A stretch of 44,678 nucleotides of DNA from a bacterium BMS3Abin08 (GTDB taxonomy: Bacteria; Nitrospirota; Thermodesulfovibrionia; Thermodesulfovibrionales; JdFR-85), in assembly GCA_002897935.1 (NCBI GenBank), contig BDTA01000083.1:1-44678 (forward strand). The letters are read 5' to 3'. This document shows, in pieces, positions 30,795-43,146 of the stretch (position 1 is its first letter; the number at the start of each line of letters is the position of its first letter). The notes under the pieces are model-generated. The model did not search any database and was not told the DNA's origin. It worked only from the letters and a program-made list of their open reading frames with translations. A program made the position numbers and the translations under genes.

Positions 30795-31343
30795 TTAGCT
30801 GATGGAGAGTCCCGAGATCTTGAGTCTTACGGTCAGACCTGAGGGCCTCCTGTAATTCCTGACGCGTATGCTCATCTCCCTCATAACCATATAGGGGGTC
30901 CTTGATTCTATATTGTAAATAATATTTGAGAGTTCTGCTATGGATTTAACATTCAGGTCCACACTGACTGAAACGACCCTGTATCCGTCATGCTCTTCGG
31001 TCCGCTCCACCCGCTCGCTCCTGATGGTAGCCCCTGCATCCGTTATAATCCGTTTAACCATACCCTGAAGTGACGCTGAGGCAAGGGCGGGGGTATCCCC
31101 GCTGAGGAGTTTGAGCTCTTCATCCTTGACGAGACTCCGCAGTTCATTGACCTCTTTCCTGAGGGCCTCTTCCTGTGAGAGCAGTGCCCGGTATTTTGTC
31201 AGTGTACGGATCTTTATCTCTTTCTCTTCCCTTAGATTGCGGTTCCTTTCTCTTAATCCACTAACCCCGTACTGGTAGAAAACCGCTATAGAGAGCAGGG
31301 CTATTAGTATGATTCCTATTAGTCTTCTCCTGTTAGTTGTCAT
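30795..31343 (-). CDS. gspM: Type II secretion GspM-like protein
   Basis: 182 residues. N-terminal membrane helix (RLIGIILIALLSIAVFYQYGV), a coiled coil (LRERNRNLREEKEIKIRTLTKY ... ALRKEVNELRSLV) and a ferredoxin-like periplasmic domain (LQGMVKRIITDAGATIRSERV ... LSNIIYNIESRTPYMVMREMSIRV). This is the GspM/PilO architecture of the inner-membrane assembly platform. Overlaps gspL by four bases. Confidence 0.85.
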   Translation of the reverse strand: MTTNRRRLIGIILIALLSIAVFYQYGVSGLRERNRNLREEKEIKIRTLTKYRALLSQEEALRKEVNELRSLVKDEELKLLSGDTPALASASLQGMVKRIITDAGATIRSERVERTEEHDGYRVVSVSVDLNVKSIAELSNIIYNIESRTPYMVMREMSIRVRNYRRPSGLTVRLKISGLSIS

Positions 31344-32740
31344 TTGCCCTGTTCTACCCCTTCGAGTTCCGCCTTGATCCTGAAGCGTTCCTTGTTCAGC
31401 CTCCTGTCTTTGACGGTAGTTGAGGAAAAGCTGACATTCCTGAATATATCCGATGACTCCAGGATGGATATGAGCTTGGTTGCACTGTCGGAGAAGCCCT
31501 CGAAGGTTGCCTTCCCATCCTTCACCTCAAGTCTTGTAAGCCATGTATCGTCCGGTAAGAGCGTGGTTACCTCCTTAAGGATCTCAATCATTACGGGGGC
31601 GTTGCTTTTGAAGCCCCGTATTGCGTTGATTTTTTTGTTGAGTACCTTTAGCTCACCCTTTAATGCCTCCACCTCTTTTACACGCCCCTTCAGGGTATTG
31701 ATCTCAACTGTCAGGGCTTCCACCTCTTTTTCGTTTTTTATTACGGGTAATGTCAGAGATGCGCCTATAATCAGGGCAAGAAGAATCAAGAGAAATGCCG
31801 AGAGAGCAACCGGCTTCTTTACGGTCTCCCTTTTCCCGAGGCTGAGAAGATTCAGGGTTTCCTTCCCCGAGATACCCATAAGGGAGGCCCCGATGGCGGA
31901 TACCCCTTCTCCTGAAACCGGCCCACTTATCGCTTTTTTCAGTGATTCGGAGAGGTCGTGTGATGGAATGCCCGTTTCACTAAGGGGGTCCTGTAACCCG
32001 CTGCCGTTTAAATAGACGATCATGTCGGGTCTCAGGTCATCACCGGAGTCTTTCCGGAGTGTATCTATTATATGGTCTGCCGTAGAGACCTCTTCAAGAC
32101 TGAGGGGCAGGCCCTTTTGGCTGAGGAGCGAGAGATAACCATCGGAGGTCCTTTTTAAGAAGAGGACTTTCTTTCCGGGATATAACCAGTTTATCAGAAA
32201 CGAAGAGGCTGTCTGTTCAGGTGTGACGATTTTTATTGAAAAACCATCCTCTTTGTATGTGTTTATTATGGGGACAAGCAACTCCCTGTTTATCAGGGTA
32301 AGCATGAGGAGGATCTTTGAATTGTCCCGGGATATTATTCTGTAATCATAGAAGACCTGTTCAGAGCTGAAAGGGGTATACCGGTCCATCTCATAGGAGA
32401 GTACATCGGAGAGGTTTTCTTCAACAGATCCGGGTAGCTCGATGTTTGTGGTCAACACCCACTCGTGGGGCACAGAGAGGATTATCTCCTTGTTTTTGAC
32501 GCCCCGGTCGGATAGCACCATCCCCGTAGTCGATACCAGTTCACCGGGCCCCGGGTGTTTTTCAGATATGGTGAGTGTCTGGAGTGCCTCTATCCTGAGA
32601 GAGACCGGGCTCCTCTTAATATAACAGACCGATATCCTGTGGTCCTCTATGGCCACCGACAGGGAGGAATCGATCCTCAGATATTCCTCGAAGGGGTTGT
32701 AAAAGAGTATTTCCTTAAGATTCTTCATGCTTTTTTTCAA
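31340..32740 (-). CDS. gspL: Type II secretion GspL-like protein
   Basis: 466 residues combining PilM- and PilN-like parts: an N-terminal cytoplasmic actin-like fold (SLSVAIEDHRISVCYIKR ... LSYEMDRYTPFSSEQVFYDYRII), one membrane helix near residue 315-335 (VALSAFLLILLALIIGASL), a coiled coil and a periplasmic ferredoxin-like domain (MIEILKEVTTLLPDDTWLTRLEVKDGKATFEGFS). It links the ATPase GspE to the membrane platform. Overlaps gspK by 26 bases. Confidence 0.88.
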   Translation of the reverse strand: MKKSMKNLKEILFYNPFEEYLRIDSSLSVAIEDHRISVCYIKRSPVSLRIEALQTLTISEKHPGPGELVSTTGMVLSDRGVKNKEIILSVPHEWVLTTNIELPGSVEENLSDVLSYEMDRYTPFSSEQVFYDYRIISRDNSKILLMLTLINRELLVPIINTYKEDGFSIKIVTPEQTASSFLINWLYPGKKVLFLKRTSDGYLSLLSQKGLPLSLEEVSTADHIIDTLRKDSGDDLRPDMIVYLNGSGLQDPLSETGIPSHDLSESLKKAISGPVSGEGVSAIGASLMGISGKETLNLLSLGKRETVKKPVALSAFLLILLALIIGASLTLPVIKNEKEVEALTVEINTLKGRVKEVEALKGELKVLNKKINAIRGFKSNAPVMIEILKEVTTLLPDDTWLTRLEVKDGKATFEGFSDSATKLISILESSDIFRNVSFSSTTVKDRRLNKERFRIKAELEGVEQGK

Positions 32741-33671
32741 TCTGCTTCACGGTTTCTTTCCATTTTCTGATGGTAAAATCATTACCGTTTATCTGGATCG
32801 TCGCTTCAATCCCGAAAGCCTTTCCCTTGCGCCGGGCAATTACCCTGTAAGTGTTGCCCGCGGAGAAAGTCACATACCCTGATATGCCTGCATAGAGGCC
32901 TCCCAGGGCATCCTGCAGTTCTGCAGAGTTTTTGATCTGTTTATTCTTTCTGTACTCTATAACTGCATCTGCAGTATCTTCGTCCATACCGGGAAGTGAG
33001 AGCAGGACCTCACGGGCTGCGGTGTTGATATTAATCCTGTCGCTATCTGAAAATACGGTGACATAGTCCCTGAGTCCCGGTTTTTCCCCGTTACCGTAGA
33101 ATATCTCCCTCGTGACACCCCTTACGAGGAGGAGTTCCTCCGTGCTGTCGAGGTTGCCGTTTTTACAATCATACGGACGGTCAAGGGAATGGTAATAGTC
33201 ATTCTCCGCACCGTTGAGTCTGTGAAGGTCATCGGGATCACGCCAGTCAAGCAGTGAATCGGCAATCACATCCTGAGTCTCTGCATCAACGCCTATTGCG
33301 GCAAGGAGGCCCTTTAATATTACATCAGATGCCCTGTTTAAATCCACCTTTGAGGACTCCGGTATGATCCTTATTTCCATCTCGAAATTATCCTCTTTCA
33401 ACAGGTTGAGCCCGCCGTTGAGGTCCCATATATCCTCGGCATCCGGTGACTTCCTTGCATGAAGCAGCTCGAGTACGGCCCTCTGTATGGCACCCTCCAG
33501 GAGCATGTCATCCTTCAGTCTCCTGTTGAAGTAGTGCCCGGCTTCCAGTTCTGTCCGTGTCATGTATGAGAAGGACATGCCAAGCACCATCAGTAGAATC
33601 AGTACCCATAACACAAGGAGTAGGGCTACCCCATCCTGTTGCTTAAAACGGAAGTTGATCTCTCTTCTCAT
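32715..33671 (-). CDS. gspK: Type II secretion minor pseudopilin GspK
   Basis: 318 residues. N-terminus QQDGVALLLVLWVLILLMVLG is a prepilin-like helix (cleavage after Gly, then Val-Ala-Leu-Leu). The large domain includes SSKVDLNRAS and SDRININTAAREVLLSLPGMDEDTADAVIEYRKN, a helix-hairpin-helix segment typical of GspK. It forms the pseudopilus tip with GspI and GspJ. ATG 33671 follows a CAGGTAGGAAT-type leader; 35 bases from gspJ. Confidence 0.92.
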   Translation of the reverse strand: MRREINFRFKQQDGVALLLVLWVLILLMVLGMSFSYMTRTELEAGHYFNRRLKDDMLLEGAIQRAVLELLHARKSPDAEDIWDLNGGLNLLKEDNFEMEIRIIPESSKVDLNRASDVILKGLLAAIGVDAETQDVIADSLLDWRDPDDLHRLNGAENDYYHSLDRPYDCKNGNLDSTEELLLVRGVTREIFYGNGEKPGLRDYVTVFSDSDRININTAAREVLLSLPGMDEDTADAVIEYRKNKQIKNSAELQDALGGLYAGISGYVTFSAGNTYRVIARRKGKAFGIEATIQINGNDFTIRKWKETVKQIEKKHEES

Positions 33672-33706
33672 TTTTAGTATGCCGATATCTCCGTATGCTG
33701 ATATTC

Positions 33707-34393
33707 CTACCTGAACGGTAAGAGACGGCGACCGAGTTCTTCCTTGTTTGAAATACTTGCCGGCTGCTGCTGTTTCATTATTCCCTTGCTCATCAGGGGA
33801 AATATCAGGTTGTGATCAAGGGCCTTCCCCTTAATGCGCAGTGCAATCGCCACAGGGAATTTGTCCTTTTCCGTCCAGTCCTTCAGCCATTGAGGATTAC
33901 CATCGGTATCGTAGGTAAAATATGCAAATTCCGCATCCTTGAGATCAGGAAAGATCGTCAGCCTCAATCCATCCTTTTCGCCCGGGAGCCTTTCAGTCTC
34001 GGTAATTCTGAAATCCTCCCGGTCTCCTTCTTCAACAGCGTAGGTTATTTCAATAAGGCCCTCCCGCCTGCCCCACAAGGAGGAGGTCGAAAGGAACGAA
34101 CAGCCCTTATTGTCCCCGGTAAACCATACGATATTTTCACCGTTTACCGTATGGGTGGTCTGCACTGCAGAGCTGATCTGCCTGTCAAGCAGGAGTACCA
34201 GGGAACGCAGTCTGTCTATTTTTTCCACCTCGGCTTTCCCCCTGTCGACGGAACTGATTCCAAGCCTCAGGGCCCCACCGATTATCAGTATTACAATGCT
34301 CAGGATGGTGATGGATATCAGGATCTCTATCAGGGTGAATCCCTTGTTTACCCTTCCCCCCATGCGGTGTCCTGAATTACAAATGATTTTCAT
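33707..34393 (-). CDS. gspJ: Type II secretion minor pseudopilin GspJ
   Basis: 228 residues. Prepilin signal VNKGFTLIEILISITILSIVIL (cleavage between G and F, Glu at +5), preceded by a long 17-residue leader; the start ATG overlaps the gspI stop (ATGA). Then a beta-rich domain with LVLLLDRQISSAVQTTHTVNGENIVWFTGDNKG. Part of the pseudopilus tip. Confidence 0.9.
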   Translation of the reverse strand: MKIICNSGHRMGGRVNKGFTLIEILISITILSIVILIIGGALRLGISSVDRGKAEVEKIDRLRSLVLLLDRQISSAVQTTHTVNGENIVWFTGDNKGCSFLSTSSLWGRREGLIEITYAVEEGDREDFRITETERLPGEKDGLRLTIFPDLKDAEFAYFTYDTDGNPQWLKDWTEKDKFPVAIALRIKGKALDHNLIFPLMSKGIMKQQQPASISNKEELGRRLLPFR

Positions 34394-34782
34394 TGAGTCA
34401 GTGACTTTATAATCCTCTCTGTTCGTAGTGTAACCCTCTTGCCCCCCCGGGGCTCGGAAACGGTTAATCGTATTTTGTAAAGCCTGTAGGGGAGGCCTTT
34501 GTACCTCTCGTTCTCTACCTCTTCGATCGTGGTTTCAACCTCATAATCATCTTCAACGTGTTTGTCGATACCCTCTTCCAGCGAGGGGTCAAGGAGGAGT
34601 ATTCTCATCTCGGAGAGGGCTATCAGTGAGAGGTCGGCATGTTTTTTTGTTGAATAAATCGACCTCAATGATATGGAAAACACCTCTGACACGGCAACAA
34701 TGCCGATTGCAAGGATTGCAATCGCCACGATAACCTCTATCAGGGTGAATCCGTTTTTATGGAGTCGCCTTGTACTATTCAT
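34390..34782 (-). CDS. gspI: Type II secretion minor pseudopilin GspI
   Basis: 130 residues: KNGFTLIEVIVAIAILAIGIVAV is the prepilin peptidase site and helix; the rest is a short alpha/beta domain typical of GspI (SLIALSEMRILLLD ... YRLYKIRLTVSEP). Overlaps gspH by eight bases and gspJ by four. Confidence 0.9.
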   Translation of the reverse strand: MNSTRRLHKNGFTLIEVIVAIAILAIGIVAVSEVFSISLRSIYSTKKHADLSLIALSEMRILLLDPSLEEGIDKHVEDDYEVETTIEEVENERYKGLPYRLYKIRLTVSEPRGGKRVTLRTERIIKSLTQ

Positions 34783-35284
34783 ATGTCTTGTTGGTTGAGC
34801 TTCCGGTCAGTGGATCTACCGTTATGGAGTATGAGGTTGCCTTCCTTGTAAGTATTATCTCCGCCCCGGAAGAGGCCCCTTCAGGATAAAAGATTACCTG
34901 ATAACTTCCGCTGTCTATTTCACCCTCAAAAGGGTCTTTAATCCTGATCCCGATATCCTCCGGGAGGGTCAGGATCTTTTTTTTTGTAACCCAGACCCTG
35001 TGGTTATCTATATCAATCGTTACGGTTGTCTCACGGCCCCTTATCTGTGCGTTGTTTTTTGCATATCTCAGCATTGAAGAGATGTCCCTCACCATCGACC
35101 TGAACTTGGCGCCGGGCAAGGCCCTGCTGAAACCGATTCCTACGAGCCCGACCATGATACCCACCAAAACCATAACAACAATCAGCTCCATCAGGGTGAA
35201 TCCCCTTTCAGAGTTGTGATGCCCTGTCCTGTTGTTATTTAGGGATGAGGGAGATTGCCTGAAGTAAGGGTTAAGGAGTTTCAT
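34775..35284 (-). CDS. gspH: Type II secretion pseudopilin GspH
   Basis: 169 residues: a 28-residue leader, then RGFTLMELIVVMVLVGIMVGLVGI (prepilin site, Glu +5) and a GspH/FimT-type domain: RDISSMLRYAKNNAQIRGRETTVTIDIDNHRVWV. It is not the major pseudopilin GspG, which has a calcium-site C-terminus not present here. 14 bases after gspF. Confidence 0.88.
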   Translation of the reverse strand: MKLLNPYFRQSPSSLNNNRTGHHNSERGFTLMELIVVMVLVGIMVGLVGIGFSRALPGAKFRSMVRDISSMLRYAKNNAQIRGRETTVTIDIDNHRVWVTKKKILTLPEDIGIRIKDPFEGEIDSGSYQVIFYPEGASSGAEIILTRKATSYSITVDPLTGSSTNKTYE

Positions 35285-35298
35285 TTCTAAAAGACGTA

Positions 35299-36492
35299 CT
35301 ACATCGGTAATTCGTTTATACTGAAGATTGCCATCAGGATTGATACGACGATAAAGCCGATTACCAGCCCCATTATGAGGATCATCATCGGTTCAAGGAG
35401 GCTTATGAACCTCCGTACCGTTGTCCTGAGTCCTTTTTCGTAAGTGTCTGCAACCTTAAGAAGCATGCTGTCAAGCTGTCCCGTCTCTTCTCCAACCTTT
35501 ATCATGGACAGAGCAAGGGACGGGAAGACCCCTGTTTTTTCTATAGGAGCGGAAACACCCTTTCCTTCCCTTGCTCCTTTTATCACCTTTTCTATGGCAG
35601 AGGCAAAGACCGTGTTTCCGATGACATCCTTCACGTTTGAAAGGGCCTGCAGCAGCGGCACCCCGCTTCGGAGGAGGGTCCCCAGGGTTCTGCAGAAACG
35701 TGCTGTCTCGAGTTTTACGACTATGTCCCTGAAGAGCTTGATCTTGAATTCATCCCACCTCTTCTTTCCCTCAGGGCGGGAGATATACCTTCTCAGCATA
35801 ACCCATGAGCCGATAAAGACGGAGATGATTATCCACCAGTAGTTACTCATAAAGGTGCTGAGCGACATCAGTATCTGTGTGGGAAGGGGGAGTGTCTGAC
35901 CAAGGTCTGTAAAGATCTTTGAGAATTTCGGTATAACGTAAGTAAGGAGTATGATAATAGAGGCACCACCCGTCAAAGTCAGTATAGCGGGATAGATCAT
36001 TGCAGAGGAGAGGTGTTCACTCAGTTCCTTTGAGGTCTCAAGGAATTCGACCAGCTTGTCAAGAACCACGTCCAGCACACCACCGGCCTCCCCTGCCTTG
36101 GCCATGTTAATGTAGAGTTTCGGGAAGGTCTTCGGATGCATGGAGAGCGCCTCGGAGAAGGAACTCCCTTCACTTATGGACTTGAGGATCGCCTTGATTA
36201 CCCCCTTCATCTGTTTCTGATCGGTAATCTCCGAGAGGATATTAAGGCTCCTGTCAAGTGGCAGACCTGCACCAAGGAGGGCGGAGAGTTCTGTGGTGAA
36301 GGTGAGTATATCGGCCTTCCTCCATCCCCTGATATCAAAGAGACGGCTCTTTGTTCCGGGCCTGGCAACCTTTATGGGGATAAATCCGGAATCCTTGATC
36401 GATTCTATGGCCGATTTTTCATCAGGAGCTTCAATTACTCCTTCATGTATGGCGCCGTCAAAAGAGGTTGCCTTGTAAGAGAATATGGGCAT
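35299..36492 (-). CDS. gspF: Type II secretion inner-membrane protein GspF
   Basis: 397 residues. MPIFSYKATSFDGAIHEGVIEAPDEKSAI is the conserved N-terminus. Two repeated T2SSF domains (FTTELSALLGAGLPLDRSLNIL and FCRTLGTLLRSGVPLLQALSNV) and three membrane helices, the last at the C-terminus (EPMMILIMGLVIGFIVVSILMAIFSIN). It couples GspE to pseudopilus assembly. Two bases after gspE. Confidence 0.95.
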   Translation of the reverse strand: MPIFSYKATSFDGAIHEGVIEAPDEKSAIESIKDSGFIPIKVARPGTKSRLFDIRGWRKADILTFTTELSALLGAGLPLDRSLNILSEITDQKQMKGVIKAILKSISEGSSFSEALSMHPKTFPKLYINMAKAGEAGGVLDVVLDKLVEFLETSKELSEHLSSAMIYPAILTLTGGASIIILLTYVIPKFSKIFTDLGQTLPLPTQILMSLSTFMSNYWWIIISVFIGSWVMLRRYISRPEGKKRWDEFKIKLFRDIVVKLETARFCRTLGTLLRSGVPLLQALSNVKDVIGNTVFASAIEKVIKGAREGKGVSAPIEKTGVFPSLALSMIKVGEETGQLDSMLLKVADTYEKGLRTTVRRFISLLEPMMILIMGLVIGFIVVSILMAIFSINELPM

Positions 36493-36494
36493 TG

Positions 36495-38003
36495 TCAGAC
36501 CTCCTGGGTGACGCGGAGGACCTCTGAGATTGTTGTGATGCCTCTCATGACCTTTCGTGTACCGTCTTCCATCAGGGTCCTCATGCCCGAGTGCCGGGCA
36601 ACCTTCCGGAGTTCAGCAGAGTCGATGTTCTTTACTATTTTATTTCTTGCGAGTTCGTCGATAACGAGGAGTTCAAATATTCCGGTTCTGCCCCTGAACC
36701 CGGTGCCGGCACAGTTCTCACAGCCTGTTCCCCTGTAGAGTGTTACACCCGGGTTGATGCCGAGGAGCCTCCTTTCCTCGTCGGATATATCCCTGTCCTC
36801 TTCCTTGCATTCCGGACAGATTACCCTTACGAGTCTCTGGGCCAGTACGGCCCTGATTGTGGAGGAAATCAGATAGCTCTCGACACCCATCTCGATCAAC
36901 CTGGTGATGGCACTTGGGGCATCGTTTGTGTGGAGAGTGGAGAAGACAAGATGACCCGTCAGTGATGACTGTATGGCGATTTCGGCGGTCTCAAGGTCCC
37001 TTATCTCGCCTATCATTATTATGTCGGGATCCTGCCTGACGATATGTCTGAGGGTGTTTGTAAAATCAAGGCCGATCCGGGGTTTTACCTGAATCTGATT
37101 AATCCCCTTCAACTGATATTCAACGGGGTCCTCGACGGTGATAATCTTTTTTTCAGGGCTGTTGATCTTGTCAAGGGCACCGTAAAGGGTGGTGGTCTTT
37201 CCACTGCCTGTCGGTCCTGTTACAAGAATTATGCCGTTGGGGAGAGTGATAAGGCGGTTGAAGGTGCCGAGTGTTTCACGGGGGAAGCCGAGCTGTTGGA
37301 GATCAATCACGATGCTTTCCCTGTCAAGTATCCTGATTACCACGCTTTCACCGTAGATGACCGGGATCGTGGATATCCTCATGTCGATATCCTTGCCGAG
37401 GACCTTTAACTTTATCTTCCCATCCTGTGGGAGCCTCCGTTCAGCTATGTTCAGTTTAGCCATGATCTTGACCCTGGAGATGATGGCCGGCTGGAGTTTC
37501 CTCGGGGTTGATTCCACATCGTGCAGTACACCGTCTATCCTGTACCTGACCTTGAGTTCATCCTCAAAGGGTTCGATGTGTATATCACTGGCCCTGCTCT
37601 CTATGGCCCTCGTTATAATGAGATTCACCAGTTTGATTATAGGCGCCTCTGAGGCGAGGTCTTTCAGGTGCCCGATATCCTGTTCCTCCTCTGTAATCTC
37701 TTCGTAACTGAGCTGGTCTATGTCTTCTATTATCTTGTTGATTGTGTTTTCCTTGCCATATAGGCTGTCAAGATAGTCGGTGATCCCGTCCCTGTCACCG
37801 TGTAATACCTCGATTGAGTGACCTGTGGCGTATTGAAGGGCGCTTATAACCTCTCTGTTATCGGGGTCTGCGGTTACAATTACAAGCCTGTTGCCCTTCA
37901 GTTCCAGGGGAATGACGAGGTTCTCCTTCAGAAAACGGGGAGATATCCCGTTCAACATAAGGGGGACCTTGGGGAATTCGGATATCTTTTCATTTCTCTG
38001 CAT
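36495..38003 (-). CDS. gspE: Type II secretion ATPase GspE
   Basis: 502 residues. A short N-terminal domain, then the hexameric ATPase: Walker A GPTGSGKTTTLYGAL (about 265), Asp box TVEDPVEYQLKGINQIQV, Walker B IIMIGEIRDLETAEIAIQ, His box TGHLVFSTLHTNDAPSAITRL and a tetracysteine zinc site (CPECKEEDRDISDEERRLLG ... GCENCAGTGFRGR). It powers pseudopilus assembly. First gene of the gsp run; no gspC, gspD or gspG is present nearby, so those must be elsewhere. PilB is excluded by the gspF-K context. Confidence 0.95.
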   Translation of the reverse strand: MQRNEKISEFPKVPLMLNGISPRFLKENLVIPLELKGNRLVIVTADPDNREVISALQYATGHSIEVLHGDRDGITDYLDSLYGKENTINKIIEDIDQLSYEEITEEEQDIGHLKDLASEAPIIKLVNLIITRAIESRASDIHIEPFEDELKVRYRIDGVLHDVESTPRKLQPAIISRVKIMAKLNIAERRLPQDGKIKLKVLGKDIDMRISTIPVIYGESVVIRILDRESIVIDLQQLGFPRETLGTFNRLITLPNGIILVTGPTGSGKTTTLYGALDKINSPEKKIITVEDPVEYQLKGINQIQVKPRIGLDFTNTLRHIVRQDPDIIMIGEIRDLETAEIAIQSSLTGHLVFSTLHTNDAPSAITRLIEMGVESYLISSTIRAVLAQRLVRVICPECKEEDRDISDEERRLLGINPGVTLYRGTGCENCAGTGFRGRTGIFELLVIDELARNKIVKNIDSAELRKVARHSGMRTLMEDGTRKVMRGITTISEVLRVTQEV

Positions 38004-38121
38004 TATCAGTTAATATACCAGAACCCGGTGTATTAATTGTAGTATATCCGTGTTCACTGTCTTCATACTTTATTCATATTTTTGCTTTACAATCAAGAAA
38101 AACAAAATGAAAGGAGTTGCC

Positions 38122-38907
38122 ATGTTGAAGAATGTGTATTTCAGATCCTGTGTTCTCTTTCTGCTGACCGCCTTCCTGTCGATAGCCTCGGTGCCCACGG
38201 TATATGCAGCCGGGAATGTAGGGAAACTCACGAACGATCAGGCCAAACAGATCCTTCAAAAGGTGGCGCCGGGACTAAAGGTGCTGTCAGTTGATAAGGC
38301 TGCCGTCAAAGGGCTCTGGGAGGTGGTTGTTCAGAGTGGTAGTGGTAAGAAGTCTATTGTTTATCTCGATTATGCAGGGAAGAATCTCGTACTCGGTTCA
38401 ATAGTTGATCTGGAAAGCCGTAAAAACCTCACAAAGGAAAAATTCGATAAAATCAACAGGGTAGATTTCTCACAGATACCCCTTGACGATGCCCTCCTTC
38501 TCGGAGATGCCAACGCAAAGCACAAGGTGATTGTCTTTGACGACCCCGACTGACCCTACTGCGCCAGACTTCATCCGGAGATGAAGAAGATTGTTGACAA
38601 GAGGAAAGACATCGCATTTTATCTGAAGATGTTTCCCCTGGTGAGTATCCATCCGAAGTCATACAATAATGCAAAGGCCATTGTATGCGAAAAGTCAAAT
38701 GACAAGGCTCTAAAGCTTCTTGAGGATGCTTATGCAAAGAAGACCCTCCCGGATCCAACATGTCAGACGGATGTGGTGGATAAGAATATCGCCCTTGGTA
38801 AGAAGTTGGGGATTTCGGGAACACCAACCCTTATCTTTCAGGACGGACGTGTTGTGAGTGGTGCAATGAGTGCCGATAAACTGACAAAACTGATTGATAA
38901 AAAATAA
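38122..38907 (+). CDS. dsbC: DsbC-like disulfide isomerase, probable selenoprotein (UxxC)
   Basis: 261 residues if TGA 38551-38553 is read as selenocysteine (residue 144). Start ATG 38122, after GAAAGGAG; signal peptide NVYFRSCVLFLLTAFLSIAS ending VYAAG. Residues 35-115 form a DsbC-type dimerisation domain (LTNDQAKQILQKVAPGLKVLSVDKA). The thioredoxin part has KVIVFDDPD-U-PYCARLHPEMKKI, where U takes the place of the first Cys of the CPYC active site, and the cis-Pro loop GISGTPTLIFQDGRVVSG. The frame is the same before and after TGA, and both halves are full domains, so it is not two genes. A perfect seven-base hairpin follows the TGA at the right distance for a bacterial SECIS. Periplasmic; would be kept reduced by CcdA (42424). 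The alternative is a C-to-A nonsense mutation of TGC. Confidence 0.85.
38551..38586 (+). promoter_or_regulatory. Candidate bacterial SECIS element with UGA codon
   Basis: After TGA (38551), 15 bases downstream, CTTCATC (38569-38575), loop CGGA (38576-38579), GATGAAG (38580-38586). Seven perfect pairs and a four-base loop with two G. In bacteria the SelB-binding hairpin lies within about 16-37 bases of UGA, which fits. The single bulged U seen in E. coli fdhF is not evident, but SECIS sequences vary between phyla. Confidence 0.65.
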
Positions 38908-42423: not shown

Positions 42424-43146
42424 ATGAAGGATATTTCATATTCAATATCGTTTTTAGCGGGATTACTGTCCTTTCTGTCTCCCTGTGTTTTGCCGCTTGT
42501 GCCCTCCTACGTATCCTTTATCACAGGGATTTCTTTCGAGGATCTGACCTCTGCCCCGGATAGGGCAAGAATCAGGTTTCTGACCCTGACGAATTCTCTG
42601 GCCTTTGTTGTTGGTTTTTCCATGCTGTTTATCGCCCTTGGCGCTTCCTCCTCTGCCATAGGGGGCATACTCTATCAGTATGAGGATACTATAAGGATTG
42701 CCGGAGGTGTCCTGATTATTGTTTTTGGACTCTTTGTGTCGGGCTTTTTGAAGATAGGGTTTTTGACGAGGGAGAAAAAACTGCATATCAGCGGTAAACC
42801 GTCCGGGTATCTTGGATCAACAGCCGTGGGAATGACCTTTGCTGCCGGATGGACTCCGTGTATAGGGCCAATACTTGGCAGCATACTCCTGTATGCCGGG
42901 AGTAAGGGATCTCCAGTATATGGTGTAAAATTGCTTTCAGTATATTCCCTTGGACTTGCCATCCCTTTTCTTCTGTCATCCCTTGCATTTAACAGCTTCT
43001 TGAGTTATTCCAAAAGGATACGGAAATACATGAAGGTTATAATGATAATCAGCGGGTTGCTCCTGATTATATTCGGCATTCTGCTTCTCACAAATATGGT
43101 AAGTCTGCTTTCCACCTATTTCCCTGACTTCGGGATCGATATTTAA
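42424..43146 (+). CDS. ccdA: CcdA/DsbD-type thiol-disulfide transporter
   Basis: 240 residues, six membrane helices. SFLSPCVLPLVPSYVSFITG and AAGWTPCIGPILGSILLYAG hold the two conserved Cys (PCVLP and TPCIGP) that pass electrons across the inner membrane from thioredoxin. It reduces periplasmic partners in cytochrome c maturation and possibly the DsbC-like selenoprotein encoded 3.5 kb upstream. No Shine-Dalgarno sequence is seen before ATG 42424 (leader AGTAGAGTTTTTCAT), because a MITE-A copy ends there. Confidence 0.93.
   Translation: MKDISYSISFLAGLLSFLSPCVLPLVPSYVSFITGISFEDLTSAPDRARIRFLTLTNSLAFVVGFSMLFIALGASSSAIGGILYQYEDTIRIAGGVLIIVFGLFVSGFLKIGFLTREKKLHISGKPSGYLGSTAVGMTFAAGWTPCIGPILGSILLYAGSKGSPVYGVKLLSVYSLGLAIPFLLSSLAFNSFLSYSKRIRKYMKVIMIISGLLLIIFGILLLTNMVSLLSTYFPDFGIDI

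Follow-up and report, generated by a model that had tools for sequence, protein, structure and literature searches.

A predicted selenocysteine-containing DsbC-type disulfide isomerase with a conserved in-frame UGA and downstream hairpin

The window (the whole stretch of 44,678 nucleotides analysed here) carries a gene that we read, with a probability of about 0.96 on the basis of sequence comparison, as encoding a secreted disulfide isomerase or reductase of the DsbC type with selenocysteine (Sec) as its attacking residue. The comparison also lends strong support to the existence of a real, so far unnamed, selenoprotein family, defined by a UGA and an RNA signal common to dozens of relatives. 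The frame from 38122 to 38904 has a single interruption, the TGA at 38551–38553, and ends with TAA at 38905–38907 (Table 1). The TGA stands within the sequence DDPD-TGA-PYCARLHPE, so that the initial annotation was right in placing it at the first cysteine of a CxxC motif, in a frame open on both sides. All six frames of the window were also scanned for open reading frames split by TGA (at least 45 codons before and at least 40 after, not inside another gene, candidates judged by size and position), and no other case looked comparable.

Table 1 Features of the dsbC-type gene and its surroundings (positions in the window)
Feature	Position	Strand	Details
dsbC-type gene, predicted selenoprotein	38122..38907	+	261 codons, UGA read as Sec144, plus TAA stop
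Probable Shine-Dalgarno sequence GGAG	38113..38116	+	Direct reading of the sequence
Probable Sec-pathway signal peptide, residues 1-29	38122..38208	+	Hydrophobic helix 2-21 ending VYA-A; cleavage site placed by eye
DsbC_N dimerisation domain, residues 39-104	38236..38433	+	PF10411, 48.4 bits, E 7.2e-13
Thioredoxin-fold catalytic domain, residues 130-257	38509..38892	+	PF13098 (Thioredoxin_2), 79.1 bits, E 3.7e-22
UGA, predicted selenocysteine codon at the first (nucleophilic) position of UxxC	38551..38553	+	TGA 71 / Cys 65 among 136 distinct homologous loci
TGC, resolving Cys147 of UPYC	38560..38562	+	Cys in every aligned Sec form except L012 (Ser)
SECIS hairpin CTTCATC-CGGA-GATGAAG	38569..38586	+	Starts 15 nt after TGA, 7 bp
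Cys189	38686..38688	+	Invariant column (46 homologues); probable structural disulfide with Cys214, as in DsbC
Cys214	38761..38763	+	Invariant column (46 homologues)
Pro235, cis-Pro loop GTPT	38824..38826	+	Invariant column (46 homologues); cis state presumed from the family
CcdA/DsbD transmembrane homologue, candidate electron donor to periplasmic thiol proteins	42424..43146	+	PF02683, 62.6 bits
Type II secretion cluster (E, F, K, M among others)	30795-38003	minus	Divergent from dsbC, adjoining

DsbC is the textbook periplasmic disulfide isomerase, and the product of the gene resembles it throughout. When the UGA is read through, both Pfam domains score above their cut-offs and P235 is invariant, bearing out the earlier view that the DsbC_N domain and the cis-Pro loop are intact. 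An AlphaFold2 model of the monomer has a mean pLDDT of 92.1, and Foldseek ranks DsbC, DsbG and DsbP as its best matches; the whole-chain TM-scores of ~0.46–0.59 suggest that the arrangement of the domains in this model differs from that in the crystal structures. A sequence search against known structures likewise returned DsbC proteins, and DsbC-type catalytic domains, as the best relatives. The DsbC structures of Escherichia coli (1EEJ) and Salmonella (4I5Q), among the best matches by both sequence and fold, share with the window protein the signal peptide, DsbC_N, the thioredoxin-fold domain with a CxxC-type motif, the Thr-Pro loop and the second cysteine pair. They differ from it in the active site, where the window protein has Sec in first place (UPYC against CGYC), and the identity is ~25%. 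Since the protein scores 88.5 bits against the NCBIfam DsbC equivalog NF008129, below the cut-off of 215, we describe it as DsbC-type rather than as an orthologous DsbC.

The strongest evidence for the UGA comes from a comparison of 136 distinct homologous loci drawn from relatives and GTDB genomes, mostly of one bacterial group and represented by assemblies that are mostly metagenome-assembled genomes. The codon aligned to the window TGA is TGA in 71 loci and Cys in the remaining 65, with no other residue found. The active-site motifs are UPYC (45), CPYC (36), CPFC (28) and UPFC (23), together with a few single variants. Most DsbC homologues in 61 related genomes contain a single TGA or none; the BMS3Abin08 genome has three paralogues, all with TGA and hairpin. 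A sequencing or assembly error, raised in the initial annotation as a change of TGC to TGA or a miscall at 38553, is suggested by the single base that separates a Cys codon (TGC or TGT) from UGA and by the origin of the sequence in a metagenome assembly. It cannot account for a TGA that is shared by 71 distinct loci from many independent assemblies, including two further paralogues in the same genome, nor why the TGA occurs together with the hairpin. The conservation across loci and in all three paralogues thus excludes an error for practical purposes.

A decaying pseudogene is equally improbable. One in-frame stop is what a nonsense mutation would leave, but a check for other lesions in the gene found none, and the sequence beyond the UGA is, on comparison of the homologues, under purifying selection. 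Simple Nei–Gojobori counts between fairly diverged pairs give dN/dS downstream of the UGA with a median of 0.21 between TGA-bearing homologues and values of 0.11–0.28 for pairs that include the window gene. Upstream of the UGA synonymous sites are saturated in most pairs, precluding an estimate there. Thirteen columns are invariant in 46 homologues, and those after the UGA include H177, C189, C214 and P235. It is this selection past the UGA that leaves the pseudogene with a negligible chance. One Sec copy (L012, G021:C1:2087657-2088406) has the motif UPFS, with the resolving Cys replaced by Ser and the SECIS retained, which points to a mechanism that uses the selenol alone or to a different partner.

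The hairpin 15 nucleotides downstream of the TGA, already recognised in the initial annotation, proved to be a property of the family. Its pattern is CTTCATC-NGGA-GATGAAG, 15 nt after the TGA, and all seven pairs are formed in 70 of the 71 TGA copies (one pair is broken in L089) compared with 3 of the 65 Cys copies. In isolation the window hairpin folds with −7.5 kcal/mol, an energy that is not exceptional against shuffled sequences (z = −0.42); the single sequence therefore could not prove the hairpin, and it is conservation that does so. With up to two mismatches allowed the motif occurs once in the window, where 0.04 occurrences are expected, and the whole 2.6-Mb genome contains three, one for each DsbC paralogue, against none for the reversed control. 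Compensatory changes are found at two pairs and are thus few: U-A to C-G in L023, L053 and L063 (CTTCAC..GTGAAG), and likewise at another pair in L165 (CTCCAT..ATGGAG). At the third positions of the hairpin codons CTT, GAG and AAG the entropy is zero across the first 46 Sec forms but 0.9–1.5 bits across 25 Cys forms. Many Cys copies retain the amino acids L-H-x-E-x-K with freely varying codons; since these residues are shared and only the TGA copies have fixed third positions, the constraint acts on the RNA. The case for a SECIS element, as far as comparative analysis can make it, is one of contrast between Sec and Cys forms and of the genome-wide specificity of the hairpin. Three Cys copies with a complete hairpin (L019, L100 and L168) are probably recent replacements of Sec by Cys, and L100 clusters on short branches with the Sec copies L021 and L024.

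The genome, 2.6 Mb in size and 96% complete, encodes the machinery for selenocysteine. The selA, selB, selC and selD genes, named earlier as a check on the selenoprotein reading, were all found: SelA (496 bits), SelB (356 bits), a tRNA-Sec with anticodon UCA, and SelD (C100:26260-27174, minus strand; locus L047). SelD is itself a selenoprotein with UGA in the known AGUAGK motif and is therefore an independent sign that the organism reads UGA as Sec. Together with the alternation of TGA and Cys at the aligned codon and the conservation of the hairpin in the TGA forms, which is the outcome of the alignment of homologues proposed at the outset, these genes support the initial reading of the gene as a selenoprotein. 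SelA was found in 60 of 61 relatives. In G046, a TGA-bearing genome that is 99% complete, neither SelA nor SelB gave a match over the cut-off, and this genome has two Sec-type dsbC genes (L020 and L070) and a tRNA-Sec of 71 bits. As the tRNA-Sec is still present, a gap in the assembly is more likely here than a real absence or recent loss of the machinery.

The UGA might instead be read as Cys or Trp, if the genetic code were altered or a suppressor tRNA were at work. The genome does have a second match to RF01852 (C92:10603-10701, minus strand; L033 1501-1599, also in L209), shaped like a tRNA-Sec but with the anticodon GCA, which fits the selC* tRNA-Cys of Nitrospirae and was not detected by ARAGORN. 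Some selC* tRNAs with an opal anticodon are on record, and they may use a second SelB (PMC7609411). As a suppressor of UGA the tRNA found here was rejected, because with GCA in place of UCA it would decode Cys codons. We consider this reading very unlikely, given that a true tRNA-Sec(UCA), SelA, SelB and a Sec-type SelD are all present and that the hairpin codons do not vary at their third positions, a pattern to be expected if recoding depends on SelB.

A further UGA-containing gene of the same genome (C123; L206 11911-12507) encodes a TlpA/redoxin-like protein. Its frame is interrupted by a TGA within W-U-G-W-C, and a hairpin GGAAGG-AGTTG-CCTTCC follows ~12 nt after the TGA. The gene lies ~3.7 kb downstream of one of the DsbC paralogues, and its product is predicted to be a second Sec-containing thiol-disulfide protein.

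With UGA read as Sec, SelB and Sec-tRNA-Sec would bind the hairpin, and Sec would be inserted without termination. The product would then be exported and adopt the DsbC-type fold, probably as a dimer through DsbC_N. By analogy with the biochemistry of DsbC, the selenolate of Sec144 would attack wrong disulfides, Cys147 would resolve the intermediate and a membrane protein of the CcdA/DsbD type would probably re-reduce the enzyme. Sec in the attacking position is expected to be the more reactive nucleophile and to recover more easily from oxidation. A CcdA homologue is encoded in the window, and the initial annotation had linked it to the dsbC-type gene; the conserved neighbourhood gives this link no support. 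In tblastn searches of the window neighbours against the other loci (flanks of up to 5 kb, often shorter) no ccdA was found beside dsbC, and only gspE lay next to it, in one relative (L003). Since the adjacency is not conserved, a role for this CcdA in the pathway is no more than presumed.

A related question is how much full-length protein is made. The UGA could serve as a regulated stop, with a short product consisting of the signal peptide and the dimerisation domain being dominant and Sec readthrough minor or dependent on selenium. Such a stop would not conflict with the Sec reading and would bear only on the amount of the complete enzyme. Sec insertion is inefficient in general, and residues 1–143 make up a complete exported domain. 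The strong conservation of the catalytic domain after the UGA speaks against such a stop and means that readthrough matters in any case; on balance, we think a dominant short product unlikely, though clearly less so than the other alternatives.

The Sec and Cys forms have been exchanged many times. In a maximum-likelihood tree of 136 proteins, calculated with the active-site residue masked, the minimum fit requires 27 changes of label, and the well-supported branches taken by themselves require 15. With Sec as the ancestral state 30 losses to Cys suffice, while 38 gains are needed if Cys is ancestral. We favour a single ancestral Sec form followed by repeated loss, since the Sec copies all have almost the same hairpin. 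Cys copies are found in genomes that retain SelA (for example G002, G004 and G005), so loss of the Sec machinery is not the reason for the Cys forms. The many exchanges suggest that the gain from Sec is conditional. With at least 15 switches among close relatives, and with Sec and Cys paralogues within single SelA-keeping genomes, the family is a natural experiment that bears on the reasons for keeping or losing Sec, and a naturally occurring Sec-DsbC would allow the benefit of Sec for isomerisation to be tested directly.

With regard to novelty, thioredoxin-fold selenoproteins with UxxC are a well-known class, so that the description of the protein as a new selenoprotein in the initial annotation stands for the DsbC type only. 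A 2026 review lists 119 prokaryotic selenoprotein families and subfamilies, among them ‘DsbG-like’ (NF041057), ‘DsbA-like’ and ‘Thiol:disulfide interchange protein’ (PF13098); DsbC is not named in this inventory of May 2026 (PMC13188914). In the deep-Sep and stop-codon-mining papers we found no mention of a DsbC-type selenoprotein family. The ‘DsbG-like’ selenoprotein (COG1651; NF041057, Rcas_1661_fam_Se) is similar in its UxxC thioredoxin fold and belongs to the broad DsbG orthologous group. Membership of NF041057 was rejected for the window protein, which gave no hmmscan match up to E 10 (the family cut-off is 190 bits); none of the three DsbC genes of the genome matched it, and the one match in the genome was a different gene, with 24 bits. 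A DsbC-type protein could be present among the 5 sequences of an older metagenome ‘DsbG-like’ set.

The ‘Thiol:disulfide interchange protein’ selenoprotein of Geobacter and Syntrophus also has UxxC and is listed under the general domain PF13098. Its reference protein is WP_011366075.1. The GOS survey places the thiol:disulfide interchange selenoprotein in cd02953 (PMC2398784). This is the DsbD gamma domain, which may set the protein apart from the DsbC-type family. Other bacterial selenoproteins with Cys orthologues (Prx-like, Trx, Grx and DsbA-like) have in common with the DsbC-type proteins SelB/SECIS recoding, a catalytic Sec and Cys homologues. The DsbC-type family differs in being about half Sec and half Cys, in a sample mostly from one bacterial group, and in having at least 15 changes between the two. 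We thus regard it as a new and unusually changeable family or subfamily within the known UxxC thioredoxin-fold class, with the proviso that a sequence of the older metagenome ‘DsbG-like’ set may belong to it. Annotation that takes no account of Sec would split such genes in two.

A further feature of the homologues is a CxxCH motif of the type that binds c-type haem. It is present in 108 of the 136, in Sec and Cys forms alike, ~113 residues before the active site and between the signal peptide and DsbC_N, and is absent from the window copy and its branch. We have found no description in the literature searched of a haem-linked, Sec-containing disulfide isomerase. It is possible, as a tentative reading of these motifs, that the family joins a Sec site and DsbC_N to a haem which would exchange electrons with the selenenylsulfide or act as a sensor. 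If so, a disulfide isomerase would be wired directly to the cytochrome network, with the window gene in a branch that has no haem motif. An example of the motif is EDCTKCHTL, and one of the other paralogues of the same genome (C84; L207 7558-8343) has CxxCH.
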